Shown here: in pieces, positions 8,350 through 59,162 of the stretch
How the letters are laid out: each line of letters starts with the position of its first letter
Position numbering within the stretch: position 1 is the stretch's first letter
Assembly: GCA_022393335.1 (NCBI GenBank)
Contig: JAJEKB010020941.1
Span: forward strand, 1-64,000
From: Macrotrachela quadricornifera
Taxonomy: Eukaryota; Rotifera; Eurotatoria; Philodinida; Philodinidae
DNA length: 64,000 bases
Direction of reading: 5' to 3'
The notes under the pieces: generated by a model
Databases searched by the model: none
What the model was told of the DNA's origin: nothing
The model's input: the letters and a program-made list of their open reading frames with translations, nothing else
Position numbers and translations under genes: made by a program

Positions 8350-9090
8350 ATGACAACTACCATCAATTACGAGTATACTAATGAAGCATCCATTGATCCC
8401 GAGCTCATATGTATGATTTGTAAAACGCCGTTCGATGATCCAATGTGTACTCCATGTGATCATACATTTTGTCGTAAATGCATCACAGAATGGATTGATA
8501 CGAGTAATGCAGGATGTCCTACGTGTCGTCTTCAGCTAGCATCGCCAGCGAGTTTTGCACAAGCCAGTCGTACTGTGCGCAATATGTTGGATCGTCTTCC
8601 AGTTAAGTGCGCGCTTTGTAAACAAGGAAAAATTCAGAGAAGCAACTTCGCTGAGCATATTAGCAAAAAATGTTCCAAGGTTGAAGTTTCTTGTCCATCG
8701 GCGGATATCCAATGTCCATGGAAGGGACCACGAGACCAACTGAATAAGCATGCAGCAATATGTATTTTTCAGCCTTTTCGTTCGACACTTAATGGTCTGA
8801 TGACTAAGAGCCAACAGCTGGAACATCAAATAAAGCAACAAGAAACTCAAATGAAACAACAAGACGCTCAAATAAAGCAACAAGAAGCACAAATAAAGAA
8901 ACAAGAAGCACAATTTAAACAACAAGAAGCTCAAATAAAGCAGCTAAATGGCCAAATAATAAGTTCCGTAGATCGATTATCCAGTAAGTAAATAAGAGCT
9001 CTTTGACATTTACTTTTACTTTAGAATAGGTCAACATTATGTGTTTAAAATGTTTCAGTAAACTTAGCAGTGAGAATAGCTCCTTTTTAA
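8350..9090 (+). CDS. RING finger / TRAF-type zinc finger / coiled-coil protein
   Basis: A C3HC4 RING occupies residues 21-59 (C21, C24, C36, H38, C41, C44, C56, C59; CMIC, CDHTFCRKC, CPTC). Two TRAF/SIAH-like zinc fingers follow (C87, C90, H103, C108; C115, C122, H134, C138). Residues about 154-205 form a coiled coil built of seven-residue repeats of the type KQQEAQI, copied about six times. RING proteins of this kind are E3 ubiquitin ligases acting in the cytosol, with zinc fingers and coil for oligomerisation and partner binding; the MATH/TRAF-C domain of true TRAFs is absent. The uninterrupted frame stops at 8991 (213 aa), but GTAAGT at 8984 is a consensus donor and TTTCAG at 9053-9058 an acceptor: removing this 75-nt intron gives the alternative end INLAVRIAPF with a stop at 9088-9090. 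Both ends are short, so function should not change. Confidence 0.8.
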
Positions 9091-15035: not shown

Positions 15036-15134
15036 ATGTAAAGTCACCCCCCCTCCCCAACAATTAATTAATATAAAAATTAAAAACGAACATTAAAATC
15101 GATTGAAATCGATAACATTATTATATCATATACT

Positions 15135-17078
15135 ATGTCCTATTCATATTATGACAATATGCAAACAAGTGAAAAAGACAAGCTGGCTAATGGAGATGAA
15201 CTTAAGAAATTAATTGAAGATTATCGATCCAAGAATCAAGAACAATTTTCTCCTGATATTATTACATTGACGCCTAAACGACGATATGATGATACAGAAA
15301 ATGAGGTGCAAGAAGAAGAAAATGATAATTTTCAAGTTGTACGCAAAAAACACCCGAAAAGAACAAGTTCTTCATTTAATCCTGTATTACAAAATTATGA
15401 AAATATATCAAACCAAGTTTCTTCAGGAGGTCATCAAGGACAGAATGTTAATGTGAAAAGCACATCGAACCAAGTTATAATCGAAGGTCATCAAGAACGA
15501 ATTTCTAATGAAAAAAGAAAGAATACAGGACGAAATAAAATTGTATTTAATTCATCATCACAAAATGGAAAAAGAATGACTGAACGGATACGAAAAGAAC
15601 AAGAGAAAGATCCAGAAATAAATCCTCATCAACAATCAAAGAATACAATTACACAACATGCATTACATTATGCGGTCGCACATCAACTCCCCCCAATAAA
15701 AATTATTTGTCAACCTGAAGTGAAAAATCATCTTGAAGGCACGAAATTAATAAAAGCACTCCTCTCTCATATTCAAGAAGATTTCTGTAAACTAAACAAA
15801 TCTTATAATAGACCTATCGGTTTCGATACCTGGTATATCGACAAACATGGAACAATATTATGCTTCACAAAAGAAATTGAATTATTTGTATATTTATGGG
15901 ATACTACACATTATCCAGATCAACTACTAAATATGAAAATTACTCCAGTACCACCTATTCATTTGCCTTCTCAGCATTCAATTATTTTTAAATTAGTACC
16001 TAATACAATATCAATTGATGAGATGGTTGAAGCTGTAGCTGATATCTGTCAATCAAAATTTTTGTTGGAAGAAATGAAAGGTTCAATGACAAACAAATCT
16101 AGGCACATCCGACTTGATCTAACATCTAAAGAAGAAGTAAAGAAAATATTGAATAATGGTGTTTTTCCAATAGATGGTCAATTATTAGAAGTTACTGAAT
16201 TTTTAACTCCACCACAAGTACTTATATGCTCACGTTGTAATTGTCCTGGTCATGTGAAAAAGGACTGTACATGTTCTTTTGATAGATGCAGACGTTGTGG
16301 TATGAATAAAACACAAGGTGAACATAAACAATGTATTATAAAATGTCATCATTGTGGAGGTGACCACCTATCTACTGATTATCGTTGCTCAATTATTAGG
16401 AACTTTCGAGGTGATTTAATTGAAGAACTGAAAAAAAGACCTGAGCTATTACCACAAAATGCACAAATATTTATACCTATTCAGTTCAGAAAGGGTGGTA
16501 AAAATGTGATAAATGGCACAGGTGTAAATGCAACGATTATACCAACACCACTTTATAGTTCCCATGTTTGGCCAGCTCTTAATCAATCAGCACCATCACA
16601 AGAAAATGGACCAAAACCTATGGTACATAACCATTTATTACACGAAATCAACTTGTTACGAAACGATTATGAAAAATTAAAATTAGAATTTGATCGACGA
16701 GAAAAGGAAATGTTAATGAAACAAGAAAACTACAAAACAAAACTAGGTGCAATGATGAATCTTCTGGTGTTACAAAACAACCAACAAAATGATTGTATTA
16801 CAAAGGTTTACACTGTAGTAAATGAATTAGTACCCATAATTACTCATTCACTTAAAGCAGTGCACATATTTGTAGAAAAAATTGTTAATGGTAATAATGA
16901 TCTACCCTTGAAGAATGAATATAATAACTTTCAATCTGCTATTGAACAAAATCTTTCTATGCTCAATGATCGCAATGATCTTGTTATTGAACATCAACGG
17001 GCAACATCATTACTCATCGAGAAAACAAATGAATTATTTTGTCAAGGTATAGGACTATTGTCTCTGAATGAACACTAA
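15135..17078 (+). CDS. LINE ORF1 protein, Gag-like with zinc knuckles
   Basis: A 647-residue RNA-binding protein expected to coat the LINE transcript. The N-terminal 180 residues are charged and low in complexity (many E, K, N, Q), with two copies of a motif like SNQVxxxGHQ near residues 90-120. Three zinc knuckles lie at about residues 365-425: CSRCNCPGHVKKDC, CRRCGMNKTQGEHKQC and CHHCGGDHLSTDYRC. Residues about 500-545 (NLLRNDYEKLKLEFDRREKE) form a coiled coil, suited to multimerisation. The start is the first ATG after the leader. Its stop overlaps ORF2 by 11 nt, so ORF2 is probably reached by reinitiation or frameshift. Confidence 0.9.
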   Translation: MSYSYYDNMQTSEKDKLANGDELKKLIEDYRSKNQEQFSPDIITLTPKRRYDDTENEVQEEENDNFQVVRKKHPKRTSSSFNPVLQNYENISNQVSSGGHQGQNVNVKSTSNQVIIEGHQERISNEKRKNTGRNKIVFNSSSQNGKRMTERIRKEQEKDPEINPHQQSKNTITQHALHYAVAHQLPPIKIICQPEVKNHLEGTKLIKALLSHIQEDFCKLNKSYNRPIGFDTWYIDKHGTILCFTKEIELFVYLWDTTHYPDQLLNMKITPVPPIHLPSQHSIIFKLVPNTISIDEMVEAVADICQSKFLLEEMKGSMTNKSRHIRLDLTSKEEVKKILNNGVFPIDGQLLEVTEFLTPPQVLICSRCNCPGHVKKDCTCSFDRCRRCGMNKTQGEHKQCIIKCHHCGGDHLSTDYRCSIIRNFRGDLIEELKKRPELLPQNAQIFIPIQFRKGGKNVINGTGVNATIIPTPLYSSHVWPALNQSAPSQENGPKPMVHNHLLHEINLLRNDYEKLKLEFDRREKEMLMKQENYKTKLGAMMNLLVLQNNQQNDCITKVYTVVNELVPIITHSLKAVHIFVEKIVNGNNDLPLKNEYNNFQSAIEQNLSMLNDRNDLVIEHQRATSLLIEKTNELFCQGIGLLSLNEH

Positions 17079-20055
17079 AGTTTTTCATTACCACCCGTCG
17101 TTTAAACCCTTATCTGTTCTTGACACTTTTATTGGAACGTCCCAAGAAAAGAAGCTATTAAAGGACATTTTAGTAGAATGGAATATGCGTGTTTCTCTAT
17201 CACATATGTGTAAGAAATGGAAAAAAGAACGTCCCACTCATAAATCTCAAAATCTAATAGCTCTAGTTTACAACATACAAGGATTAAATACCCACTCAAC
17301 AGATATTGATATTTTGCTGAACAACTACCAGCCGCATGTATGTGTATTATCCGGTGTCGGAGCAGCTGTTAGGAAACTTCCTACTTTTCCTGGTTATACA
17401 GGTGTAGCCCAAATTGGTAGTAACTCTTTTGGTGGAGTTGCTATCCTATACAATAATTCGTTAAAATGTCAGGTGATTGAAAGAGATATAAACTTCTTAG
17501 TAATAGAAACAAGCATAGCAGGAGTGCAAATAAAGATTGGTGCAGTGTATGTACCCCCTCATTCGTTACCACCATTTCATCTATTTTCAAAATATAAAAA
17601 CAATCCTTTTGTCTTTTTTGGCGACTATAATGCCAAACACACGTCTTGGAATTGTCCAAAAAATAACACAGCCGGTAATGAGTTATTTAATTGGTTGGAG
17701 CAATCAGGAGTAGAAATTATTCATCCCACTAGGGCGACATCACGTAAATCAGAAGCTATAATAGACTTCGGTATTATACATGATGCAAATGGATGGCACG
17801 CAGAAGTAATAGATGAAGGCACATCAGATCATAAACCAGTACTTTTTCAATCACCCTACTGTGTAGACGACGGATCTATGTTCCGAAAAACAAACTGGAA
17901 CATTTTTTCCTATTTCCTATCAGTTGTATTTGAATACTGGAATTCATTAGTATATAATTTCGATATAAATACTTTTATTGAACTCTTTTCTCTATTTTTA
18001 TCGGCCTTGTGGGATCGTTGTAGTGTTTATGAACGAGTAAATAATTTTAGACCACCATGGCCACCATCACTGGTTCTATTAGCACGAGAAGTTAATAGAT
18101 GTCGAAGGCGCTATCGACGAACACGATGCACGCTACATCTCGAAACATTCCTGACTATGAAAAGAATATTGACGTTGAAAAGATATGAGATTCTGAATCA
18201 GAAACGCGAAAGCAATTTAAAGTGGATAAACAATAAGCATAATATCTGGAAATATGTTCAGCCTATCTTCCATACCTTTTCACCACCTTTCCGTGGACTT
18301 AGTATGGATAAGGACAATAAAGAAAGGAACCCAGAAAAAATTGTTGAACTACTTGCGGAGTATTATGAAAAACACTTTGAAACACCACAATATGATATTT
18401 CGAACCCCACTCATATACATGCCGTAAATATATATGGGGAAATAGCAAATATACCTAACCTGCCACTAGAAAAGATCAAAATCGAGGAGGTGTTAAAAGA
18501 ATGGAAAAACTTTCGTCCAAAAAAATCTACAGATAGCGCAAACACGTCAGCATTTTTACTTAAGAAGCTTCCCCCACAATATATAGGTACTATTACCGTT
18601 TTGTTTAATCGATGCGCAGAAAAAGGAGATTTTTTTCAAATGGCAAAACATGCCAAAATAATTTGTTTATCTAAGGAAGGACTATTCCCTACAGTAAATA
18701 AGTTACGACCTATTTCTCTATTACCAAATATAGGGAAATGGTTTGAACGTATAATTCATCATAGACTAATAACATGGTGCTATGAAAATAATATATATAT
18801 TGATGAACAAAGTGGATTTACAGCAGGAAGAAGGCTTCAAACGAGAATATTAGCGTTATTAGAAGACCTGAGATTAACAGTTGCTGCCTGTAATCGACCG
18901 GCCTTAGTTCTCTTCGTGGATTTTCTTAGCGCATTTGACAGGATGTGGTATCCATCCCTAATATCAACGTTAAAATCACTAGGACTACCAACCCCCTTAC
19001 TCAAATGGATATATAACTGGCTACAAAAACGTACTTTCTGTATACACTTCGGCGAAGCGCAGTCACGTATTATCCCCATGCATGTCGGAGCTCCCCAGGG
19101 CTCTGTCATGGCAGCCACCTTATTTCGTCTTCACGTACATTTTCTACCATCCTTTTTTTTCTCGTTGACATCACATATGTTTGCTGATGATTTTGCTATA
19201 CAAATTTCCGGTGATCTAGAAAAACGCTTCTCTCGAAATATTACTGAACTAGAGATACGAGCCAAAATAGCTCTTGAACAACTAAGGAAATTTGCGGAAA
19301 ATAATATTCTTCCAGTTAACACAAATAAGACAAAAGCTCTTCTAGTACATAATGTAGTTGCACCACTAAGACCTAAACTAGAATATAAAGGTCAACCAAT
19401 ACAATACGTAAACACATTCAAATATCTAGGAGTAACAATCTCCACTAAGCTTGGTTGGGGCAGTTACATTACCGATAGGATTAGAAAAATAAGACAAGTC
19501 TATAACGGTATGAGAAATCTTTATCGCAATATACCGAAACAAGAAATTAAATCTAGGAAAAAAATTTTCTCTGCTTTTGCTATGCCACATTTTATTTGGT
19601 TATTTCCGACGTGGTTCTTGTTTACAGAGAAACAAAGGAGATACATTGAACATGTATACTGCTCGGGAATAAAATGTGTTTATGAACTGTATAATTGGGA
19701 TGATGAGACCGTATTGATTTTGAGTCGCGAAAGATCACTCCTCGATCATGTCTTTTGCTACTGGCAAAAATTCAATAAGCATCTAGAATCCGCACCGGAT
19801 GCACTATGCCTCCAACAGAGCTGGACAATATATAAAACCCTATTGTCACCGGATCGCAGCTGGTTGAAAAATTCAGGATTTAATCGCCGTAGTAAATTTC
19901 TAAATAGATTAATAAAGCGAGCTGAACACACCTTAAACGATTGGTATGCATTCGAACAAATACATAGAGAACAATTAAATTATTACTCTACTAACACAAG
20001 ATTTATAAATATATTTATATATAAATTCTTTCTAAACGCTAGATATATTGAATAA
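17068..20055 (+). CDS. LINE ORF2: APE endonuclease-reverse transcriptase
   Basis: 995 residues without interruption. An apurinic-endonuclease-like domain spans about residues 62-260 (YNIQGL at 68-73, FGDYNAKH at 184-191, SDHKPV at 253-258). The reverse transcriptase spans about 500-760: LRPISLLPNIGKWFERII, QSGFTAGR, motif A FVDFLSAFD (D618 and D624), GAPQGS at 674-679, and FADD at 705-708 with both catalytic aspartates, then FKYLGVTI. The endonuclease nicks the target and RT copies the RNA in place (target-primed reverse transcription). One oddity: the glutamate expected after the conserved strand (usually ..L.ETH) is glycine here (VCVLSGVGA, G96). The start at 17068 overlaps ORF1. Confidence 0.92.
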   Translation: MNTKVFHYHPSFKPLSVLDTFIGTSQEKKLLKDILVEWNMRVSLSHMCKKWKKERPTHKSQNLIALVYNIQGLNTHSTDIDILLNNYQPHVCVLSGVGAAVRKLPTFPGYTGVAQIGSNSFGGVAILYNNSLKCQVIERDINFLVIETSIAGVQIKIGAVYVPPHSLPPFHLFSKYKNNPFVFFGDYNAKHTSWNCPKNNTAGNELFNWLEQSGVEIIHPTRATSRKSEAIIDFGIIHDANGWHAEVIDEGTSDHKPVLFQSPYCVDDGSMFRKTNWNIFSYFLSVVFEYWNSLVYNFDINTFIELFSLFLSALWDRCSVYERVNNFRPPWPPSLVLLAREVNRCRRRYRRTRCTLHLETFLTMKRILTLKRYEILNQKRESNLKWINNKHNIWKYVQPIFHTFSPPFRGLSMDKDNKERNPEKIVELLAEYYEKHFETPQYDISNPTHIHAVNIYGEIANIPNLPLEKIKIEEVLKEWKNFRPKKSTDSANTSAFLLKKLPPQYIGTITVLFNRCAEKGDFFQMAKHAKIICLSKEGLFPTVNKLRPISLLPNIGKWFERIIHHRLITWCYENNIYIDEQSGFTAGRRLQTRILALLEDLRLTVAACNRPALVLFVDFLSAFDRMWYPSLISTLKSLGLPTPLLKWIYNWLQKRTFCIHFGEAQSRIIPMHVGAPQGSVMAATLFRLHVHFLPSFFFSLTSHMFADDFAIQISGDLEKRFSRNITELEIRAKIALEQLRKFAENNILPVNTNKTKALLVHNVVAPLRPKLEYKGQPIQYVNTFKYLGVTISTKLGWGSYITDRIRKIRQVYNGMRNLYRNIPKQEIKSRKKIFSAFAMPHFIWLFPTWFLFTEKQRRYIEHVYCSGIKCVYELYNWDDETVLILSRERSLLDHVFCYWQKFNKHLESAPDALCLQQSWTIYKTLLSPDRSWLKNSGFNRRSKFLNRLIKRAEHTLNDWYAFEQIHREQLNYYSTNTRFINIFIYKFFLNARYIE

Positions 20056-42057: not shown

Positions 42058-43997
42058 CTATTACCAATTGTATTTCTAGTACTTATTTTAATTGTTTAAA
42101 AATTATTTTGTGTGGACAACACACTACCTGCTAATTGGCATGGTTTTTCATCCTTTTGATACACAATCACAGAGGTAACCATATTCGACCAAAAAGAGAT
42201 AAATGTGTTAGGGTATTTGGCTCTAAAGACTAGCTAGTACAAATCTACCAAAGGAAAACATTATTATGATAATCAGATTTAAGCTTAATTATGCCAGAAT
42301 AACTCCAATTAGCCTCAACGGTGCTTAATTACCATTAATGATACAGATGAACGGCTAGTCGCTTATCAGTACCCCTCCGGATCGTCAATCACGGCTAGCT
42401 GTCTTTCTGTGCAGCCCTACCATTTCATTTTTTCTAATTTTTTGTTTAACATCCATCCCCTTCCCATTTATCTTTCGGTTTCTCCGAATTAACGTTCGAT
42501 TGCCGAAAACACTCTAATTGGGCAACGTTCTTTACACATGCCAATATCAAATTTCTGATTGCTTAAACATTCAGCCTAGAAAAGTTTCATTAGTCGACAG
42601 TCCAACACCAAAAACCCCTACTTGCCCGGACCCCTCAGTTGAATAAATCTGAGGTTAAAAAACTGATCAGTCGAGAACCCAAAATCAAACGAATGAGATT
42701 GGACGAAAATAGGCCATGGAACAGTTTGATTGGTCAAAAATCCGAGGTCGAAAGAATGTGATTGGTCGAGAAGCCACCGCCATAATCCCTAATTGGCTGG
42801 CTTTAAGACTTGAGAAAATGTATTTTGTAGTCGAACGTTTTTCTACCTTTGATTTAGGACAAACAAATACGCACACAAACTTTGTAGCTTTTTTTCGTAT
42901 GACCCTCCCTTCAATCGAGAGAGTAAAGAAAAAAAAAATGATATTTCACTATATTATCAATTATGAGAAGCCACTAATGCTATCTATTCCTCTTTTTCCT
43001 CTAGCATGATGTCACGACATCTTTCGCACGCGTGACTAAAAAGAGAAAAACATCTGCTATGCATTGAGCGTGTGACAACATATGTCATGACGCCAGGCGT
43101 ATATAGGCCGTACGTATTGAATAGGGTTGAAAAATCACCCTCAAAAATTATTATTGCAACACAACACAATAAGAAACAGAACGATTAAGTTTGCTCGTTT
43201 GTCGAGCATGTGTCTGGTAACTGATACGTTATTATTTTTTTTCTTTTCTTCAATACTCAAAGACAGTAAGACAACTCATTTTTCTATCGTTCTTGCATAC
43301 ATATAAAACTCAAAGAATTGTTTCGAATTTTTAGTTACTGAAGTTTTCAACTATTCGAATATTGAAAGTTGAGGGTGAGGGTGAGGGTGAGGATGACTGG
43401 ATGAAGAGTGAAACTGAGAGCGTGGGGGATGAAGACAGTGAGGTGTTGATAACTACTCACAAAGCAACACTGTGGAAGATAATTTAAAGTTCATATAAGA
43501 TGTGTTATGATCTGGGCATTGCTTATTCCTATTCGTCACAGTGCGAAAATTGAAATCGTTAACGCGAGCTGCATTTCGCCCAAGCCGTACTCCTAGAATG
43601 CTCGAATAATTGAAAACTCGAAGAGAATTTCAAAATTGGAAACAAATTAATGATTTTTACATTACTATAAATACATTTTCTAGTTTTTTGTCTAGATCAC
43701 TGCATTGTGTAGTGGACAGAAAATTTTCTCCAAATAAGTTTTTTTGCTTTTTATTTCGAACACCGAATTGTTACTATAGAGCAGAAATTTTTATTTCAAA
43801 TATTTATTTTTTTCTTTTCTTCAGATCAGATTCAATAGAAAAACGACTACACACTAAGTTAAAATGTGTCATATATACTGTATTTTACGACACATTAAAG
43901 TGCGACAGGAAGAGCTCACTGCGACACTTTGCTTCTAGCGGACCCACGGCATATTTTTGAGCACGTGGAGATTTTTTTGCAAAAATCGGATTATTAA
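42058..43997. other. Gene-free stretch with CCAAT-like repeats and a GAGGGT run
   Basis: No gene is supported. Between about 42545 and 42800 the motif TGATTGGTC/GATTGGAC or TAATTGGCTGG recurs at about 30-bp steps, each followed by GAAAATCCGAGGTC-like text: a short degenerate repeat rich in inverted CCAAT boxes. At 43369-43393 GAGGGT is repeated four times in tandem (G-rich strand plus). Short frames at 42716-43009 and 43610-43960 lack domains. Confidence 0.35.
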
Positions 43998-44551
43998 CCC
44001 TTTCGCGCCGTCATTGTTTAGCGAAAAATATGTTTCGGTTTTTTCAAGAAAGTCTTTATTATGGTTGGTGGAAAATTGCGCGTCAAAAAGTCACAGCGGT
44101 CTGCTTCATTGCCCCAAAACTTAGCACTGAATAGTCTTCGCCAGATCCGGAGTCATGAATTTTTTAAAGAAATGCACGCCACTGTAGAAAATGCTCGATC
44201 CTGCGAAGTGTTTTAGTCCTGTATCCATCCAAATGCTTTCTTTTCCAAAGGAGGATATTGTATGAACATCCTGGGCTCCATTGTTTTGTATTATAATTGT
44301 TATTAGAAGCATTTCGCTATATTGATAGACTTACTTTATGTGAAGACTCTTGAGAGAGAACAAAAGATACTTGAAGTTTCGCACTAAAAGTATATCTTTC
44401 TTATAAAACTTCCGACACCCAAAATCTCTCTCGTTATAGTAGAAGAAGCTCCTTAGCCACAAGTACCGAATATCGCTTCGAGCATCATTTGATATTTGTA
44501 TCTAAGAAAAAACGGTACCGTCCCGTATATGGAACACTCGGCGCGAAAGGG
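43998..44551. mobile_element. piggyBac-type MITE, 554 bp
   Basis: A perfect 13-bp terminal inverted repeat, CCCTTTCGCGCCG, is flanked on both sides by TTAA (43994-43997 and 44552-44555). TTAA duplication and CCC.. ends define the piggyBac superfamily. The interior shows no transposase, only a 63-codon frame on minus (44121-44312). The perfect ends suggest a comparatively young insertion. Confidence 0.85.
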
Positions 44552-44555
44552 TTAA

Positions 44556-45196
44556 TACTTTTTCAGTTTAATTCGGATTAATGGTATCTTATTTTGTATC
44601 TGAAGACAATCAGATCGTAAGATCTGACTGTTCTGAAATTCTCAAATTTCGACAGAGCCACTCCGAGTCAGTCAATTCTTGGCCAGCTAGCGACCTCTTA
44701 AGAAATTCTCGAATAATAAATGGTCGCGAAATATCTGAAAAAAAAGATATATGAATATGTATCAATTTAGCACATTGAATCGACTCATGTAGCTTCATGG
44801 GCGAAACAAAACGGTGAATGAACAGGTGACATATACTACGCCACATAAAGAATGCGACACATTCGTACATATATTAATTCGACATATTTTATTTTAGTAT
44901 GTAGACACTTCCCTTTTGTTCTTACTTTTTTTCAAACAATTTCTGCTGCTAGATCTGAATGTGATAAGTGGATGCGAATTCCACTACGGCAATACTCATA
45001 ATCGTTGAATCAAAAATACTGTTAAAAGCCATAAGTTCCTCGTTCGTACATTCTACGCTCAATTCTTTTCTGTATTAATATATCGAATAAGTAACTTTGT
45101 TCTGTGCTTGAGCTATGTTCTTCTTGCTATTATGCCGAGGTGTTCTTGTTTTCTAGATTCAGTATCAACATTTTTATACGCCATCCATCCGTCTAT
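44556..45196. other. Upstream flank of the RING-MIT gene
   Basis: No gene is seen. The frame at 44610-44870 (minus) has no recognisable content. The region just before 45197 probably contains the promoter of the RING-MIT gene, but I could not pick out a TATA box. Confidence 0.3.
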
Positions 45197-46984
45197 ATGG
45201 CCGCAAAGAACGTAAACTCCATCGAAAGCCTAATCAGTTGTACGATTTGTCTTGAATATTTTGATGATCCACGCATATTGCCCTGTTCGCATACTTATTG
45301 TTTTAAATGTATTCGACGAATGGCCTCTCACAATAACGATCAGTTCGAGTGTCCACTACGTGATGGAACTAAAATTCGAAAAGAACAAATTGATTCACTG
45401 CCTCTGAACAGAGTTGTACGTGACATCATCGAGCAGTTAGGTAAATGAATTGACTGATTTAATTAACGAACCTTTCCTAAATTTCACATTTATCCAGACT
45501 AGCAGTCATCTAATCTGCTAATGACGTGTGTGAGCATAGAGTATAACTCACTTTCATCAAATGAAGATTATCAGGTGCATCAGGAGCTTCTTCAGATTAG
45601 AGATACATCAATTCCGATCGGAATCGAATGGGTATAATAACAATCCAAACACTCAAAACCCATGTGACATTGCGCATTTATTAGATCCATTGTTGTAAGA
45701 GGCGTCAAATAACTATTTGTTTCGCTAACCATAAAAACCAAAGTGGATATGACTCGAACTTTTCCAAGAATCATCTATTTCGTCGATTTTCGATTCATCC
45801 AAGTCAGGGAAGATCAACTCTGAAGAATAAATCGTCGAAAAATTCTGAAACTTTCAGAGCAGATAGATCTCGTGCATTATATCAAAATTTGCGGTAGACT
45901 TGAGCTTGCGTAAAACTTCCTCCATAAGATAAAGAGACTGCAAGTACGAAAAATGACCTGAAGTTTGTCCACCTTTTCTCCGAGACAGTTCGACCGGTTG
46001 AACTGAAAACTTTTTTATGGTTGTATTCTTCGTTCCGGAGAGTCAAAATACTAGAAGCCCTGTGACAAAGCATCCTTTTTCGTTGTAGCGAAATCTACTG
46101 AAAAATCATTATAGCAATATTTTTTCAAAAAAAAACATGCACTCTGATTTGTTCCAAGTTACTACAAAAAAAATGTTCAGCTCAATTGGTTGACGAATTT
46201 CGGAGACAAAGGGGACAAACTTCAATTTTTCTCTTTGAAAGTTGAATTTGAAAAAAACGAAGCACGAAATCACGTTTTTTGAGTTTTAGCATAGTTTCTT
46301 AGTTTTTCTCGTTTATCAATGCTGAACGAGAGGCTTTCTATTCTCAAAATATGCTCAGTAGTTGAGGGGCACTTCACTTTGTATACCCACTATAAAAAGT
46401 CAAAAAAGAAAAGGTGGAAATATTGAGTCGAAAAGGGATGGAGTATCCCTAACATCAAGCCCAACACGAATATTCATTGAATCTCTCTTCCATTCCAGGA
46501 TCGCAAAATGCTTCTCTCGATGCTACCGGTACACAAAAAATAAGCACTGTGACTACAGGAAATGAAGTTTCAGCGACAACAAGTGACATTCCAAATCCTT
46601 CAAATGACTATATTCAGGTGCAATATCATATTCCAGCAACATTTATATTCGGTTGCTTTACTAGTACTATACTTTCTTCTTCTCTTAGAAAGGTATTCAA
46701 TTCGCTGAGCAAGCTACACAAGAAGATAAGGCGCAGAATTATGAAGCTGCTGCACAACATTATATGACAGCAGCTAATTGGCTCCTGCAAGCGATGAAAT
46801 GTCAGTATTTGAAGTGACTGTTTTCGACAAAGAAATTAAAATGTGAATGTATTTAGACGGTGCGATGTGTTCTCAAATGAAACAAGTGTTACGACCAAAA
46901 ATCGATGCTTATGTCAGACGAGCAGAAGAGATCAAAGAAGTAATAATGGGTCGGTCATCTAGCCTCACTTTTTCAAGTGAATAA
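45197..46984 (+). CDS. RING finger-MIT domain protein, four exons
   Basis: Exons 45197-45440, 46499-46617, 46689-46800 and 46857-46984 join in phase to 200 codons (introns 1058, 71 and 56 nt, all GT-AG: GTAAAT..CCAG, GTGCAA..TTAG, GTCAGT..TTAG). Residues 15-56 are a TRIM-like RING: C15, C18, C30, H32, C35, C38, C52; the eighth ligand position holds R55, with D56 next to it (ECPLRDG). Residues about 83-121 are a Ser/Thr-rich linker. Residues about 122-188 form a three-helix MIT domain of the VPS4 type (FAEQATQEDKAQNYEAAAQHY, then KIDAYVRRAEEIKEVI). MIT domains bind tails of ESCRT-III proteins and RING domains recruit E2 enzymes, so a ubiquitin ligase aimed at endosomal/ESCRT sites is inferred. 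The ATG at 45197 is preferred over one at 45104 in the same frame because the RING follows closely. The first intron carries a foldback repeat. Confidence 0.75.
45870..46235. mobile_element. Foldback MITE inside intron 1 of the RING-MIT gene
   Basis: The stretch at about 45870-46070, with TGAAGTTTGTCCACC..TCTCCGAGACAGTTCGACC, recurs inverted at about 46100-46235 (GGTTGACGAATTTCGGAGACAAAGGGGACAAACTTCA). Similarity is moderate and extends to ATTTCGCTACAACG. It explains why this intron is over 1 kb while its neighbours are under 80 nt. Confidence 0.55.
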
Positions 46985-47406: not shown

Positions 47407-49466
47407 TACATTCACCACGATGGGTTCCACTGGTGGGACCCGCTCGGTTTTCACAAGAAATTTAATGGAAAAACAGTTTCTGTCTCTTTGTTGTTCAATG
47501 GAAAACAGAAAGGAGTGTGTCATCTAGTCCGTCCTGCCGCTGTTTCAGTTATGTATTACAAAGGATGATGTTTTTCATTAAAGCAGTCCAGACAAAAAAA
47601 GGATCACAATCAGAATAGAAAGTTTTTTATTTTTTTTGCTATTGCATTACTTGCTTCTCTTGATTGTTGTTGGCGGATTTTATCATAGCAACCAACACAA
47701 CGCCTTCGAATATAATGACCATGTCCTTCTTTTTCTGCTAGCTTGTGATCGGCGAGTTTACATTTTCCTTGGTCAGTTTTTTTCTGTCTCACACCCAGCT
47801 TCAGCTTCTCGAACGGCATACCAAGTGGTAAAGATTGGACAAGACTTTCTCAAAACTGTAAAATGGTAGTTTTGTTTGCAGCGGAGTGTTCCCTGTATAT
47901 CAAATAGCTATTCACTATTGCTGTACCAAAAACCAATTCAAATGCCACCTTTCGATATCACTTTATTGACTGTTTGAGACATGTGTAATAGGCTGATAGC
48001 TGATCAGACAAATCAGTAACTTATCTTCCTTCATTATAATCTAGCACTACTTGTGACTTCATGATAAGCTCATTTTGACTAACTGATACTTCCAGTATTC
48101 ACCACAGTTGCTAAATGCGATGGCTTTGTAGATATCATCAAAACATCCTTCTTGTCTTTTCATTTGATCAACTTTACGCCGTCTTTATTCTGTAGTCCAT
48201 AAACTTCCCCGCGTTCAAGTTTTTTCTGAACAACTTCGCTTCCTGATCCGACACGATTACTTCTCAGTGTTCCAATAAGATACGTATCATGTTTTAACAA
48301 GCGCTTCGCATGAGAAATGCTGATGAAGAAGTTGTCAGCTATGATAGTTCGATAGCATTCGTCAAGACCATCCAATAAATTCATTACCACTGTTTGAGTA
48401 TACCCAAGACCTGCCGTGGAATCTTGTTAGTCAGTATAGATCACGAAATTCCAAGTGTATCTATTCGTAGTCGCTAGCCTGTACATCTTCACGTCATACT
48501 GATGTGCTTTACCACGAATATATTGTTGAACAAAAGCCTCCCTCGTCAGGGTATCATAGTTTCGTCGATAATCACAACGGAATCTAGAATATATACTGAC
48601 GAAAACTTGGCTCTCAATAAGTCCAAGATTGGTTGCAACTTGAACAGCCTATCTTGACTCGAATCTTTGTTATCGTTATTCGAAAAATGCCAAAACTTGA
48701 GGTGCAATTCGAAACTCTCTCGGCATAGCATTTCGAATAATCTTCGATCCGTACAATTGACTGCTGCTCCAGTAATGGTTCAGCTGCGGCATTTATACCA
48801 ACCCTATCTCGATTATGATCCCAAAGAACTTGAGCATGTCCTCATCAGTGGTTGGTTTCCATTCACGATATTTGGACCATTTGCTAATCTCATAGGCTTG
48901 CAAGTATTGCTTCGCATACTGATTAGATTCACCAACCATAAGGCTAATAATATCGTCTGTGATGAAATGTCAATAGCAATCGATAGGGTTGATTGTGTTA
49001 TGTTCTGAAGTAGAAATTACTTCATCGACGAATTCATGATTTTCCATGAGTTCTGCATCCGATTCTGATTCTATTTCGTACCAACCGTTTGAATTCACCT
49101 CGTCAACAGTCATTTCTTCGTCGGAATTTTCAGATTCAAGATGCATTTCATCAAAATCATCACCAAAGAGCTTACTCCACTTAGTGAGGTGGCGCTTTCT
49201 TCTGTATCAATTTCTTCAAATGACATGTGACCTTTCTATTTCGAAACTTGGAACGCTTTTATACATCACATAACAAAGATAAGAATATGGAGGAAGTTTC
49301 TGAAAATTTCCTTATGACTCATTATGAGATGATATAAAGAGAAGAACAATGAATAATCTGTGGAAGATAATGAAAAGGTCACTAAGTGCATTTATCTGAA
49401 GTTAACTCTTGAGAGATATGGATATTTCAAAGATTTTTCCAAGAAAACTGAATCGTGGTGAATATG
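47407..49466 (-). mobile_element. piggyBac element, complete ends, dead transposase
   Basis: The left end TACATTCACCACGATG and the inverted right end CATATTCACCACGATT are flanked by TTAA at 47403-47406 and 49467-49470. The minus strand carries a transposase relic (separate entry). Near the left end GGTTCCACTGGTGGGACCC is a small palindrome as found in piggyBac subterminal sequence. Length 2060 bp matches an autonomous piggyBac. Confidence 0.85.
47524..49226 (-). pseudogene. piggyBac transposase pseudogene
   Basis: Reading leftward from the ATG at 49226 (acidic MSFEEIDTEES) the family landmarks appear in order: MLCRESFELHLKFWHFSNND (about 48731), DRLFKLQPILDLL, then VVIIDETMIP with the first catalytic aspartate, an in-frame TGA just after DETMIP, YIRGKAH-like and RYTWNFVIYTD followed by TAA, then MNLLDGL..YRTIIADNFF with a further catalytic aspartate, GTLRSNRVG, and the C-terminal RRRCVGCYDKIRQ Cys-rich domain. 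The C-terminal cysteine frame is broken by a frameshift at about 47625. The enzyme would cut and paste at TTAA; at least two stops and frame breaks make it non-functional. Confidence 0.85.
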
Positions 49467-51926: not shown

Positions 51927-53597
51927 TTATTTGAGTCGTCCGACACAATTAAACGCCAATGCAAGAAAGATAGTTGCAAGAGGAATAAAGTATATAGGAA
52001 TTAGGTAAACTTCATTTTTCACAGCTACGTATGACATAACAAGCACATATATACCCATCACAAAGTTTCGCCTGCTAAATTGAAAAGAGGTAACTTTTCG
52101 AGCTGTCGGTTGATTCATTTGTCGGAACAGATCAATTATCATATATGTAATGAATGAGAAACAATGTAAACACCTTTTTTTTATATTTTTGATTATGTAA
52201 GCTATCGATTTGTATTCAGTCTGATTTGATTCCGTACATGGTATTTCCATTGGTTTATTCAGTGTGTTAATATTGTAATTTTCATGTCCAACTCTTAATG
52301 GTACGATCCACTGTTTTGAAGAATTGTCTTTCAACAGTCCAGATACGAATGCACAGGTATAATGTATAGACATCATATTTACAAATAAAATGAATGGTAG
52401 CAATAAATGAATTCCATCAGGTGTAAATACAATGGCAAGGAGGTTATACAGTATTGACATAAAAATACCAGCGATGATAGATGGTGCTCTAATCATTGGT
52501 AACCACATGCTTGCAGGTATATACACAAATAACCAGGCAACATTAAATGATCGAATCAGGTTTTGAAATAGATGAATTATACAATCTAGTTTTTTCAGTG
52601 CAGAAATATGTTTTGATCGAATAATTTCGCCGAACATTTTTATAGCTACTTGTGTATGACCACTTGTCCATCGATGCTGTTGTGAAAGATAGGAAAATAC
52701 TGTTGGAGGAAGTTCATTAAGAGATTCAACATTAGTCAAGTATACTGCCCTCCAACCTCTTACATAGGTTCGAACTGACAAGTCTATATCTTCAACAAGT
52801 GTATCAGTCTGCCATCCACCAGCTTGTTCAATGGCCGACGCTCGCCAAACACCACCGGAACCATTGAAAGTGAAAAATAACGACGCACGACATCTACCAT
52901 CTTGCTCGCATTTATGATGAAAATTGAGTACAATTTCTTGCATACGCGCTAATAATGAGTCTTTAGCATTAGTAAATGTCCATCGAGTTTGTACATAAGC
53001 CACATTTGATTGACTCATTAGAATAGGCAATGTTCTTTGCAAACAATCTTTAGCTGGTAAATAGTCTGCATCGAATATAGCGATGTATTCAGCACTAGAA
53101 ATGAATTTCATACCATGGATAAGATTTCCTGCTTTGAAACCTGATCGATCGGTTCGTCGAAAAACATCTATCTGGACTCCTCGATCGATCCAACTTTGAA
53201 CACATTTGTCAATAACCGTTTTTATATGCTCCTCAGTGGAGTCGTCTAGTACTTGAATGAAAAGACGATTTCTCGGCCAATCTAAGTTGCAGGCACATTC
53301 GATGACGGATTCACAACATTCGATTTCATTCATCATTGGCAGCTGAACAGCGACCAACGGATAATCAAGGTCAGTTACTGATGATGGTAAAACATCTTTC
53401 ATTGTTGGTTGAACGGGAGCTGGTAAAAATAGTCGATAACAGACAAGAATAATACGCTCAATGAAACAAAATGTGTAGACAACAGTAAATGCAATATTAA
53501 TAATTGCAAAAATTAATGTTAATGTATATTCAATATCGACATATTCCAAAATTGTCGATGTCTGTTTGGAAATATCGATTGATGCTACTGGAGGCAT
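51927..53597 (-). CDS. GT2 family glycosyltransferase, CslA/mannan synthase-like
   Basis: An intronless 556-residue membrane enzyme. A signal-anchor/TM lies at about 25-55. The processive GT2 motifs are all present: VLDDSTEEH (D118, D119) for nucleotide-sugar binding, FDADY (D176-D178), VEDIDLS with the catalytic-base aspartate (E269, D270), and QQHRW at 306-310. Three or more C-terminal TM segments (about 345-410 and 505-550) would form the polymer channel. This layout belongs to the cellulose synthase-like A/glucomannan 4-beta-mannosyltransferase group, which makes beta-1,4-linked mannans or related polysaccharide from GDP-sugars in the Golgi or plasma membrane. Such enzymes are found in plants, fungi and bacteria and are not typical of animals, so horizontal origin is inferred. 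Substrate cannot be settled here. AATAAA on the minus strand overlaps the stop codon. Confidence 0.88.
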   Translation of the reverse strand: MPPVASIDISKQTSTILEYVDIEYTLTLIFAIINIAFTVVYTFCFIERIILVCYRLFLPAPVQPTMKDVLPSSVTDLDYPLVAVQLPMMNEIECCESVIECACNLDWPRNRLFIQVLDDSTEEHIKTVIDKCVQSWIDRGVQIDVFRRTDRSGFKAGNLIHGMKFISSAEYIAIFDADYLPAKDCLQRTLPILMSQSNVAYVQTRWTFTNAKDSLLARMQEIVLNFHHKCEQDGRCRASLFFTFNGSGGVWRASAIEQAGGWQTDTLVEDIDLSVRTYVRGWRAVYLTNVESLNELPPTVFSYLSQQHRWTSGHTQVAIKMFGEIIRSKHISALKKLDCIIHLFQNLIRSFNVAWLFVYIPASMWLPMIRAPSIIAGIFMSILYNLLAIVFTPDGIHLLLPFILFVNMMSIHYTCAFVSGLLKDNSSKQWIVPLRVGHENYNINTLNKPMEIPCTESNQTEYKSIAYIIKNIKKRCLHCFSFITYMIIDLFRQMNQPTARKVTSFQFSRRNFVMGIYVLVMSYVAVKNEVYLIPIYFIPLATIFLALAFNCVGRLK

Positions 53598-55052
53598 ATC
53601 TTATTTACGTACGAATTATAATCGACAAATTATTATCTAAAATCAAGTCAGGTGTAGATCAATGCGCACAAATATGTCTGCAAGAACAATAGTACCATAT
53701 TTTACTGATATCTTGTTAAAATCACATCTTTTAGATGTGGTTTATAGATCTTAGATACATATATATACTCATTCGTTCAATCTGCTCTTAAAATTTGAGA
53801 AGGAAATGATGTAGAGTTCCAGTCAATGTAACATCTAAAGTATAAGTCATTTAAATGATAAATTCATGAAACTTTAGTAGCTACCGCGACTTAATTTTTA
53901 GGGATTCATCAGGATTTAAAGATACTTAGACATTTTGAAATAATTTTCTATTAAATCCTAGGGGAGAAATATATTCAAAAAAAAGATTCGGCAGCTCCTT
54001 CTATATTAACTTATCTTTGTTCAGATAAAGTTTAACACCGGTTTTGTTTTGTTGTAGACAGTAATAATTAACATTGACGATAGTTGTGCACTAGCAGTAC
54101 AAATTTAACGAAATATTGTATGGTAATATTATGTTGTTAGTGATTAGAATGAATACAAGCTTCGTATTTATAAGTAATAATGTATACTTTTCTTTCTTTT
54201 TATTTTTTATTTTTATATATAATACTCAACAACCCTACCTGTGTATTGTGATTGCTAAGCACATTAATAGCGCCTTTGCTATAGATTAGCACATGTTTAT
54301 CTCTTAAATGAAATGTATAAACTCCGTCGATATTCATGTGACTATCTATTTTAAACCAATACATCGCACTCATAGGTAATTACAACCCATTGGCCTCAGT
54401 AGAAACTCGTTGAAAACTAAAGTTATAGCAACGTAGATGAAGGAAAGTGTACAGTAGAGGTCCAAACAGAGTGCTAGGCCTACCTATTATATTTTTGATA
54501 ATTTAAAAAAAAATTTTATTTTTGATCAACAAAGGTAGTTATTGATGAATATATTTAAGAATGTGTCGCTAAAGGATGAAAAATAATTTAATTCGTATTG
54601 ATTGGATAGATTTATGACTAATTAATAATAGCGATCACATGACATTATTCACTGATCACTATTTATATTATTTCTACGTTTTACTGAATTAACTCGGAAT
54701 AATTTAATGACTATTTTTGTTATTTTTAGATAAATATTTTCTTAATCTTTGTACTTCATCGACTAAAATTTCTACAGTAAATTGATTAATCTTGAATTTT
54801 ATCGATTAATATTTATATTAAGTCAAATGATTGAAACAATATATTGTTATAAAAAATTATCAAAATTTATTTTTCCTACTAAACGAGCAGAAAATGATAC
54901 TTATCAACGAATAATTAATTTTGCAAGTTGTTTCAATTTGATGATGATGAGAGCACAAAGTATTTGCTGAGACATATGTGTCCAAAAAAAAGTTATCGTT
55001 CGAAAATAATCAAAATCCGATAGATAAATTCACCGTCACTTTAATTAACTGT
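53598..55052. other. Gene-free stretch upstream of the glycosyltransferase
   Basis: No gene is supported. The start of the glycosyltransferase on minus lies at 53597; no clear TATA could be chosen. The 62-codon frame at 54782-54970 lies just before the hAT relic and could be part of the same decayed transposon. Confidence 0.3.
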
Positions 55053-57134: not shown

Positions 57135-59162
57135 ATGGGGAATAATCTCGTCGACAAATATAAACATGTTGCTTTGCCATTCTTACCAATTTCTACTGAT
57201 GATGAGAAGTACAGACCAGATATTGATGGCTTACGTGCCATTGCTGTCCTCTCAGTGGTAATATTTCATGCTTTTCCAAAGCAGCTTCCAGGTGGATTTG
57301 TTGGAGTAGATATATTTTTCGTCATCTCTGGTTATTTGATGACTTCGATAATTTCCAATGAACTCGATGGAGGCTCGTTTACTTTTAGTTCATTCTACGC
57401 CCGCCGGATAAAAAGAATCTTTCCATCATTGATTGTAGTTTTAGTTGCTTGCTACATAGCTGGTTATCACTTGTTACTGCCTGCAGAACTGAAAAATTTA
57501 GGTGCTCATACGGTGGCTGGATCGGTTTTTTCGTCGAACTTCTTCTCGAGTATGCAACTAGGATATTTTGATCAAACCTCAAATTCTGAACCTTTACTTC
57601 ATTTATGGTCTCTTGGTATCGAGGAGCAATTCTATATAGTCTGGCCATTGCTATTGTATGGAATTTGGGAACTGAAAATAAACCCTTTCACTTTAACAAC
57701 TTTACTGACAGTCTTCTCTTTTACAATAAATATCTATAAAGTAAATACACAAAGAAATCAAACTTTTTACTCGTCAATAGCTCGTGCTTGGGAACTACTG
57801 ATAGGAGCAATATTAATCTTTATGGCCAAACATATGAAATATTATTGTCAGAATGTAAATATGCGATTAAATACTTGTTTCAACACTGTGTTGTCCAGTG
57901 AAACATCTAATAGAGATGTAGACGTATTAGGCATGATAATGTCGATCATTGGAAGTCTTTTGATTATCTCGCCAATGTTTATTCTTACAAAAACCTTCGC
58001 ATTTCCAGGATGGTGGGCAGTCGCTCCAACAATGGGTACCGCATTTCTAATATCAGCTGGTCCAACAGTTTGGATCAATAAAAACATCCTTTCTGTACGC
58101 TTTCTGGTCGAAATAGGACTAATTAGCTATCCCCTCTACCTTTGGCATTGGCCATTGCTTGTATATACATCTCTTTATATTGGAGATGATATGTCTGACT
58201 TCAAACGTGTTCCCGTTATCATTCTGAGTTTCATCGTTGCTTTAGCTACATACAACTTTATTGAGAAAACATTTCGCTTTGGACAGTTTCCTAAAGAAAA
58301 ACTCATTTCATTATGTATTATGATGTTCATTATTGGTTGTGTCGGCTGTTTCACTTATCTATCTAATGGATTATTATATCGACTCCCTCTATCTATGCGA
58401 AATATTATAAAATACAATAATAAATGGTCTATTGAGGAAACACAGTTTTACAGAGCTGGTACATGTCTTCGTAATGAAAGACAAAATTATATGCAATTCG
58501 ATAATTGTGTGGACAACATAGAGAAGCCCACTTCGACTGCAGTACTACTATGGGGTGACTCACATGCCGCGCAGTTACGTTCAGGAATCGTAGCTGCAAA
58601 GCCTGATTTTCGTATAACTCAACTCACTGCGTCTATATGTCCACCAATTATTGGATATTCGATATACAAGGCACCATTTTGCACTGAAACCAACAACTAC
58701 ATATCTAAACGAATTGCATATGAAAAGCCAAATACTGTTATATTGGCAGCGAATTGGCCCGAGTATGACTGGAAACAGTTAGCGAATACCATAATATTCC
58801 TGAGAAATATGACCGTGAAACAAATCTATCTAGTTGGTCCTGATCCACATTGGAAAAACGGATTGCCCAGAACACTTTACTCATATTATATGCGTTATAA
58901 GCCACTTCAGATACCTGCTCGTATGGATACTGGATATTTTAATTACATAGCTGATTTAGATAAAGAGATGGAAGCCTTCGCTGTAACGATGAAAATTAAC
59001 TACATTTCTTTGCACAAGATTTTGTGCAATTCGGATGGTTGTTTAGTGAAAATTGGAGAGAATATCGATACGCTGACCTCGTTTGATGGTTCCCATTTAA
59101 CTGTTGCTGGATCAACTTTTGTTGTAGATCACTTTCCAAAAAATCTTCTACATGTTACGTAA
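57135..59162 (+). CDS. OafA-like acyltransferase with C-terminal SGNH domain
   Basis: An intronless 675-residue protein. Residues 27-410 form an acyltransferase-3 membrane domain: RPDIDGLRAIAVL leading to H45 (VVIFHAFP), FVGVDIFFVISGYL at 55-68, FYARRIKRIFP, SLGIEEQFYIVWP, then about ten hydrophobic helices (ISYPLYLWHWPLL). Residues about 465-670 are an SGNH hydrolase-like domain with GDSH (S476) and the terminal D..H pair in FDGSHLT (D651, H654). In bacteria the same fusion adds O-acetyl groups to lipopolysaccharide or peptidoglycan: the membrane part passes acetyl from acetyl-CoA across the membrane and the SGNH domain transfers it. The full domain order and absence of introns point to bacterial origin; the animal nrf-6 group of acyltransferases lacks the SGNH fusion. 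Substrate in a host animal is unknown. The ATG at 57135 is the first in frame. Confidence 0.9.
   Translation: MGNNLVDKYKHVALPFLPISTDDEKYRPDIDGLRAIAVLSVVIFHAFPKQLPGGFVGVDIFFVISGYLMTSIISNELDGGSFTFSSFYARRIKRIFPSLIVVLVACYIAGYHLLLPAELKNLGAHTVAGSVFSSNFFSSMQLGYFDQTSNSEPLLHLWSLGIEEQFYIVWPLLLYGIWELKINPFTLTTLLTVFSFTINIYKVNTQRNQTFYSSIARAWELLIGAILIFMAKHMKYYCQNVNMRLNTCFNTVLSSETSNRDVDVLGMIMSIIGSLLIISPMFILTKTFAFPGWWAVAPTMGTAFLISAGPTVWINKNILSVRFLVEIGLISYPLYLWHWPLLVYTSLYIGDDMSDFKRVPVIILSFIVALATYNFIEKTFRFGQFPKEKLISLCIMMFIIGCVGCFTYLSNGLLYRLPLSMRNIIKYNNKWSIEETQFYRAGTCLRNERQNYMQFDNCVDNIEKPTSTAVLLWGDSHAAQLRSGIVAAKPDFRITQLTASICPPIIGYSIYKAPFCTETNNYISKRIAYEKPNTVILAANWPEYDWKQLANTIIFLRNMTVKQIYLVGPDPHWKNGLPRTLYSYYMRYKPLQIPARMDTGYFNYIADLDKEMEAFAVTMKINYISLHKILCNSDGCLVKIGENIDTLTSFDGSHLTVAGSTFVVDHFPKNLLHVT

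Follow-up and report, generated by a model that had tools for sequence, protein, structure and literature searches.

In TRIM5-CypA, which arose by retrotransposition, a TRIM-type RING is fused to a binding domain that was copied out of a housekeeping gene. ATPases, kinases, proteases and deubiquitinases reach the endosomal sorting complex required for transport III (ESCRT-III) through MIT domains, and a natural protein joining a RING to an MIT domain, if true, would add the missing ligase side. The nearest ubiquitin enzymes are AMSH and USP8, which, in the available portions of the sources, remove ubiquitin and are placed on ESCRT-III by an MIT domain (PMC5484354, PMC9477494). Here, we describe a predicted RING-MIT gene at 45197..46984 on the + strand of a 64,000-nucleotide stretch (positions 1 to 64,000 of contig JAJEKB010020941.1, assembly GCA_022393335.1; hereafter the window) from the bdelloid rotifer Macrotrachela quadricornifera. 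On balance, we lean towards reading it as a chimeric bdelloid gene that has been selected as an adaptor, probably an adaptor ligase, bringing a RING to ESCRT-III tails.

Results

The predicted gene has four exons and encodes 200 residues followed by TAA (a spliced frame of 603 bases). Exon 1 (45197..45440, 244 bases) carries the start codon and the RING module, residues 1-81 plus one base, and ends at a phase-1 donor, the GT at 45441. Intron 1 (45441..46498, 1,058 bases) holds an imperfect inverted repeat (45959-46016 / 46167-46224). Exon 2 (46499..46617, 119 bases) encodes a Ser/Thr-rich linker with the 3' end ...PSNDYIQ, and is followed by intron 2 (46618..46688, 71 bases, phase 0), exon 3 with the first part of the MIT domain (46689..46800, 112 bases) and intron 3 (46801..46856, 56 bases, phase 1). 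Exon 4 (46857..46984, 128 bases) supplies the last part of the MIT domain, a C-terminus of its own (MGRSSSLTFSSE) and the TAA. When the boundaries were shifted by up to one base, no other exon set kept GT..AG at every intron together with a frame free of internal stops. An earlier note on this DNA had proposed this four-exon model, with phases 1, 0, 1 and 200 residues, joining a TRIM-like RING to a VPS4-type MIT domain. The unique open set bears out the model, the RING families found by Pfam and the nearness of TRIM chains agree with the first label, and the profile search that the note had suggested found the MIT domain at residues 120-186 with 59 bits.

The MIT domain (46612..46939, + strand, spliced across exons 2-4) matches PF04212 over the whole profile (1-66 of 66; E 4.9e-16, against a cut-off of 30 bits), and its closest solved chains by sequence are VPS4B (52 bits) and VPS4A, in keeping with the VPS4 label. 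The predicted protein is not itself a VPS4, as Pfam found neither the AAA ATPase nor the Vps4 C-terminal domain in it. A tblastn search of VPS4 against the window (E up to 10) returned both MIT exons, two matches attributable to chance (E 0.14 and 0.51), and no remnant of the VPS4 ATPase.

The same genome carries its own VPS4-1 on C1077, with a near-identical copy on C1469 (601 bases compared). Its coding exon 1 (MSGQNDYIQ) ends in phase 0 and its exon 2 (112 bases) in phase 1, after which comes the remainder. Introns 2 and 3 of the window gene lie at the sites of VPS4 introns 1 and 2, and exon 3 has the length of VPS4 exon 2; because the own-genome VPS4 is interrupted at the same positions and in the same phases, these two introns are backed beyond consensus. 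The 3' end of exon 2 (...SNDYIQ) resembles that of VPS4 coding exon 1, whose start codon has no counterpart, and exon 4 runs parallel to VPS4 exon 3 until roughly where the MIT domain ends; from there it has its own short C-terminus, and the VPS4 linker and ATPase are not continued. Identity to the own-genome VPS4 is 81% over 37 residues and 62% over 29 in the two exon stretches.

In a 26-row tree of MIT domains, the window MIT groups with 16 VPS4-1-type rows (support 93/95; 94% of 200 bootstrap trees), ten of them from Adineta or Rotaria and one the own-genome VPS4-1, and apart from the own-genome VPS4-2, VPS4-3 and VPS4-4 fragment; its position within the VPS4-1 clade is not fixed by the tree. 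Among database proteins with a named organism, those nearest to the own-genome VPS4 come from Adineta and Rotaria. The trees took 18 of the 24 proteins from a database search with VPS4 residues 1-80 (P0025, P0028, P0029, P0030, P0034 and P0035 were omitted, as was P0010 of the whole-query search). To judge by these sequences, the MIT part derives by duplication from a bdelloid VPS4, of which it comprises the first three coding exons with their introns, and so goes beyond mere VPS4-likeness; the retention of the introns argues for duplication at the DNA level.

VPS4 forms a small family in this genome. Besides VPS4-1, the contigs C3816, C4141 and C4514 carry a divergent VPS4-2, a VPS4-3 that matches over the full length of the protein, and a shorter match. 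The last, on C4514, takes in only VPS4 residues 10-113, its second piece is gapped, and the 9 kb covered there show no ATPase match. Decay of the sister MIT copies on C4141 and C4514 was considered and dropped, since the stops there do not fall in the MIT exon but where the reading runs on into the neighboring introns, and are thus uninformative on decay.

Is the MIT part still in use? Between the window MIT and the own VPS4-1, nonsynonymous divergence (dN) is 0.167 and synonymous divergence (dS) 0.959 over 72 codons. On the branch to the window MIT, 17 of 34 changes are nonsynonymous compared with 79.6% expected (P 1.2e-4; VPS4-2 as outgroup, 66 codons); with ambiguous sites dropped or moved, or with VPS4-3 as outgroup, the count is 12-13 of 23-24 (P 0.003-0.0044). 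In an unpolarized neutral simulation, none of 3000 runs reached 18 or fewer amino acid changes if all 49 differences were placed on the window branch; as the simulation rejects neutrality only with this placement, the polarized branch test is the one to weigh. Taken as substitution patterns in a predicted coding region, these data show purifying selection on the MIT part.

The same data bear on whether the gene is instead a dying copy, a VPS4 fragment no longer used behind a RING exon. The long MIT branch would fit such a copy, as would two RING changes at otherwise fixed columns, the degenerate piggyBac transposase nearby, and the neutrality that the unpolarized simulation keeps if half or a third of the differences fall on the window branch. 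GC content at third codon positions (GC3), 0.308 in RING-MIT versus 0.128 in VPS4, points the same way. GC3 was also weighed as a mark of foreign origin, without a clear answer: half of the six other long frames in the window lie at 0.27-0.32 and the other half at 0.10-0.19, and two of the higher three are themselves possible horizontal acquisitions. Given the branch test, and a spliced frame that runs through 603 bases with intact splice sites and no stop or frameshift, we hold a dying copy to be highly improbable.

The fusion depends chiefly on the splicing of exon 1 to exon 2, which we infer from the selection on the MIT part and a missing Met. The exon 2 frame has no Met from the upstream stop to the MIT domain, so an intact MIT requires an upstream exon. 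Likewise, an MIT under protein-level selection should be translated and therefore needs a first exon; the RING exon, about 1 kb upstream, fits in phase, strand and frame. Intron 1 itself is supported by its consensus sites, its phase and the open frame. As its acceptor, four further AGs (46460, 46559, 46568 and 46574) would also keep phase and frame; judged by eye, 46499 has the best pyrimidine tract.

Read-through past the exon 1 donor meets a stop two codons on, and would yield a short RING protein. The locus might then be two adjoining genes, one that codes for a RING alone and stops just past 45440, and one for the MIT, whose separate first exon would lie within intron 1. Small RING-only proteins are predicted elsewhere (P0002 from Adineta ricciae, P0005, P0006 and P0008, which may be truncated gene models), and the length of intron 1 also speaks for two genes. 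However, exon 2 has no in-frame start, its acceptor phase matches the RING donor, the RING exon ends one residue past the C-terminal helix of the RING module, and the two parts lie 1 kb apart on the same strand. No alternative first exon came up (no systematic search for one was made). Together, these features make two separate genes distinctly unlikely.

The RING itself is recognizable by several profiles. Pfam places six RING families above cut-off, among them zf-RING_UBOX at residues 15-53 (E 1.2e-11, 44.9 bits against a cut-off of 25.2). The zinc finger (45239..45358, + strand, residues 15-54) has seven of the eight canonical zinc ligands (C15, C18, C30, H32, C35, C38 and C52), and P-L-R55-D56 stands where the eighth Cys is usual. 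D56, which follows R55, may coordinate zinc; Asp serves as ligand 8 in RBX1 and TRAF6, where the spacing is shorter by one residue. TRIM2, TRIM31 and TRIM56 are the closest solved chains by sequence. The predicted protein thus has the TRIM-type RING of TRIM/RBCC proteins, and neither a B-box nor TRIM_CC was among its 15 Pfam matches (E up to 10), so the B-box and coiled coil of that class are missing.

Replacement of the eighth Cys by Arg-Asp, as CPxRD, recurs in the RING relatives P0002, P0003, P0005-P0009 and P0036-P0039, a family of bdelloid type. RD occupies the ligand-8 site in 8 of 9 rows of alignment A1, which includes P0011 with CPQC, and in 11 of 11 rows of alignment A2, which left out P0011 and P0008. 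Four relatives carry B-boxes (P0003, P0037, P0038 and P0039) and P0007 has a TRIM coiled coil and a weak B-box; others have a leucine-rich repeat (LRR) partner (P0036, Rotaria sp. Silwood2) or an SH3 partner (P0009, Adineta steineri). To judge by the protein letters, the ends of some small RING proteins, such as ...KGECIFY in P0006, may stem from read-through of a phase-1 donor. The B-box region of P0003, P0007 and P0037-P0039 also matches ANCHR-like_BBOX (PF22586), above cut-off only in P0003 and P0039. ANCHR is described, in the available part of a survey of human MIT proteins, as sequestering VPS4 (PMC9477494).

Binding of the predicted protein to ESCRT-III can be approached through the MIT groove. 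VPS4 binds CHMP1, CHMP2, CHMP6 and IST1 strongly, and V13 and L64 of VPS4A decide binding of the MIM2 and MIM1 motifs, according to the accessible text of the respective studies (PMC7995964, see also PMC9477494; PMC11218997). At the positions of V13 and L64, the window MIT and the own VPS4-1 both have A and V. Four groove positions are identical to those of the own VPS4-1, and the fifth (VPS4A L12) is F in the window MIT and S in VPS4-1. With these VPS4-like groove positions and what is known of the MIT family, we infer that the predicted protein should bind ESCRT-III, sitting on the polymers where VPS4 binds too.

A protein with such a groove might simply compete with VPS4. Its RING would then only dimerize, and a double MIT without ATPase would occupy ESCRT-III tails and slow VPS4. 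The MIT is conserved, the ATPase is gone with no remnant within the window, and the RING has a non-canonical ligand 8 and no basic linchpin. The action of such a competitor would somewhat resemble that of a truncated ESCRT-III duplicate such as RetroCHMP3; PMC7618577 cites a title on RetroCHMP3. However, the RING shares 27 of the 29 columns on which ten relatives, those with B-boxes among them, agree, and RING function of some kind is therefore likely retained. We regard a pure competitor as rather unlikely.

Searches for other proteins of this kind reached predicted proteins only up to a limited length, and only where these had exact words in common with the query. The whole-query search returned ten proteins, eight with a RING and no MIT and two with an MIT and no RING; none of the 24 proteins matched by VPS4 residues 1-80 has a RING, and none of the five matched by the P0007 RING (P0007 itself counted) has an MIT. 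The assembly was searched for MIT domains over 450 Mb and 5,695 contigs; scoring the best 150 of 580 candidates gave 20 MIT matches, with VPS4-1 at two loci and RING-MIT at one, and more MITs may exist. A tblastn search with the RING (E up to 0.1) over 26 loci found it only at the window's own locus; these loci take in the 20 MIT matches with flanks of at least 1.5 kb as far as the contigs extend (on C4762, one flank is 0.7 kb). In mainly open literature, no paper has 'RING-MIT' or 'MIT-RING' as whole words, and no title or abstract opening among the papers found is on bdelloid VPS4 or a RING-MIT fusion. The human MIT survey nowhere uses the phrase 'ubiquitin ligase' in its main text and, in the part available, names no ubiquitin ligase among MIT proteins (PMC9477494). 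The earlier note knew of no described small protein with just this pair, and the database matches and that part of the survey agree; a small RING-MIT protein is of a kind not met in the databases and literature searched.

The surroundings contain mobile and possibly foreign sequences. Upstream, at 43992-44557, lies an element of the piggyBac type resembling a miniature inverted-repeat transposable element (MITE). Its inverted ends match perfectly over 19 bases (..AACCCTTTCGCGCCG), and TTAA stands at each end. The degenerate piggyBac-type transposase downstream (47610-49206, - strand; wider extent by eye) matches PF13843 in both of the broken frames that were tested (48160-48426 and 48546-48779). 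Two long intronless frames, a family 2 glycosyltransferase (51930-53600, - strand) and an acyltransferase-3 fused to SGNH (57135-59159, + strand), are possible horizontal acquisitions; the latter fusion is a bacterial-type architecture. Further away on the + strand, two long overlapping frames (15084-20055) resemble by eye ORF1 and ORF2 of a long interspersed nuclear element (LINE), and a single open frame (8350-8988) combines a RING, a zinc finger of the TRAF type and a repetitive tail rich in Gln and Lys.

Discussion

Several observations tell against a selected adaptor ligase. Intron 1, with its 1,058 bases and consensus-type support only, is long compared with the VPS4 introns (46-62 bases). 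The window MIT branch is long (0.35), and the branch test, run on VPS4-1 as a control, finds 8 nonsynonymous among 11 changes (P 0.40), which makes the test coarse at these counts. With 24 differences on the window branch, 2142 of 3000 neutral simulations reach 18 or fewer amino acid changes, and with 16, all 3000 do. The RING has R at ligand 8 and D at the usual basic linchpin, and deviates at two of the 29 agreed columns (L36F and G48D). Finally, neither a RING-MIT orthologue among the database proteins matched nor a second RING-MIT copy among the MIT matches of the assembly (best 150 of 580 candidates) was found.

The adaptor ligase that we favor would have arisen when the first three coding exons of VPS4, at its 5' end, were duplicated with their introns but without start codon and ATPase, landed behind a first exon that encodes the RING of a bdelloid TRIM-like family and became spliced to it. 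The RING may dimerize through the helices flanking the finger, as TRIM RINGs do, so that each dimer would present two MITs, tethered by Ser/Thr-rich linkers, and these MITs could bind ESCRT-III C-terminal tails in the manner of VPS4. Such a bivalent adaptor could deliver E2~ubiquitin, or the RING dimer alone, to ESCRT-III polymers. There it might ubiquitinate ESCRT-III or cargo, opposing AMSH and USP8, or merely compete with VPS4. More tentatively, and with less confidence than we place in the adaptor ligase, bdelloids may reuse one TRIM-type RING first exon (CPxRD, probably with a phase-1 donor) as a ligase cassette before B-box, LRR, SH3 and MIT partners. In this genome, such reuse could have yielded a ubiquitin ligase that is guided to ESCRT-III by its captured VPS4 MIT and may restrict membrane scission or enveloped parasites.

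In its MIT sequence and in introns 2 and 3, RING-MIT is like the VPS4 of its own genome (C1077/C1469), from which it differs in having no AAA ATPase and no VPS4 start codon, and a RING in front. It shares the RING module with CPxRD with the bdelloid TRIM-like proteins (P0003, P0007 and P0037-P0039), but where these carry a B-box and/or coiled coil, it has a linker and an MIT. P0009 (RING with SH3) and P0036 (RING with LRR) likewise set the same RING module on a non-TRIM partner, with a different partner domain. TRIM5-CypA is similar in combining a RING with a copied domain, whereas RING-MIT keeps the VPS4 introns, pointing to duplication at the DNA level. It also gives a clear view of how a new gene forms when exons are joined at the DNA level: the VPS4 donor, its introns and a trace of selection can all be seen within one genome. 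The likeness that we propose to AMSH and USP8 is a ubiquitin enzyme placed on ESCRT-III by an MIT; they remove ubiquitin, while the enzyme part of RING-MIT is a RING, and its MIT is C-terminal and VPS4-derived. If true, RING-MIT would be the ligase counterpart of AMSH and USP8 and a ready tool to ubiquitinate ESCRT-III sites.
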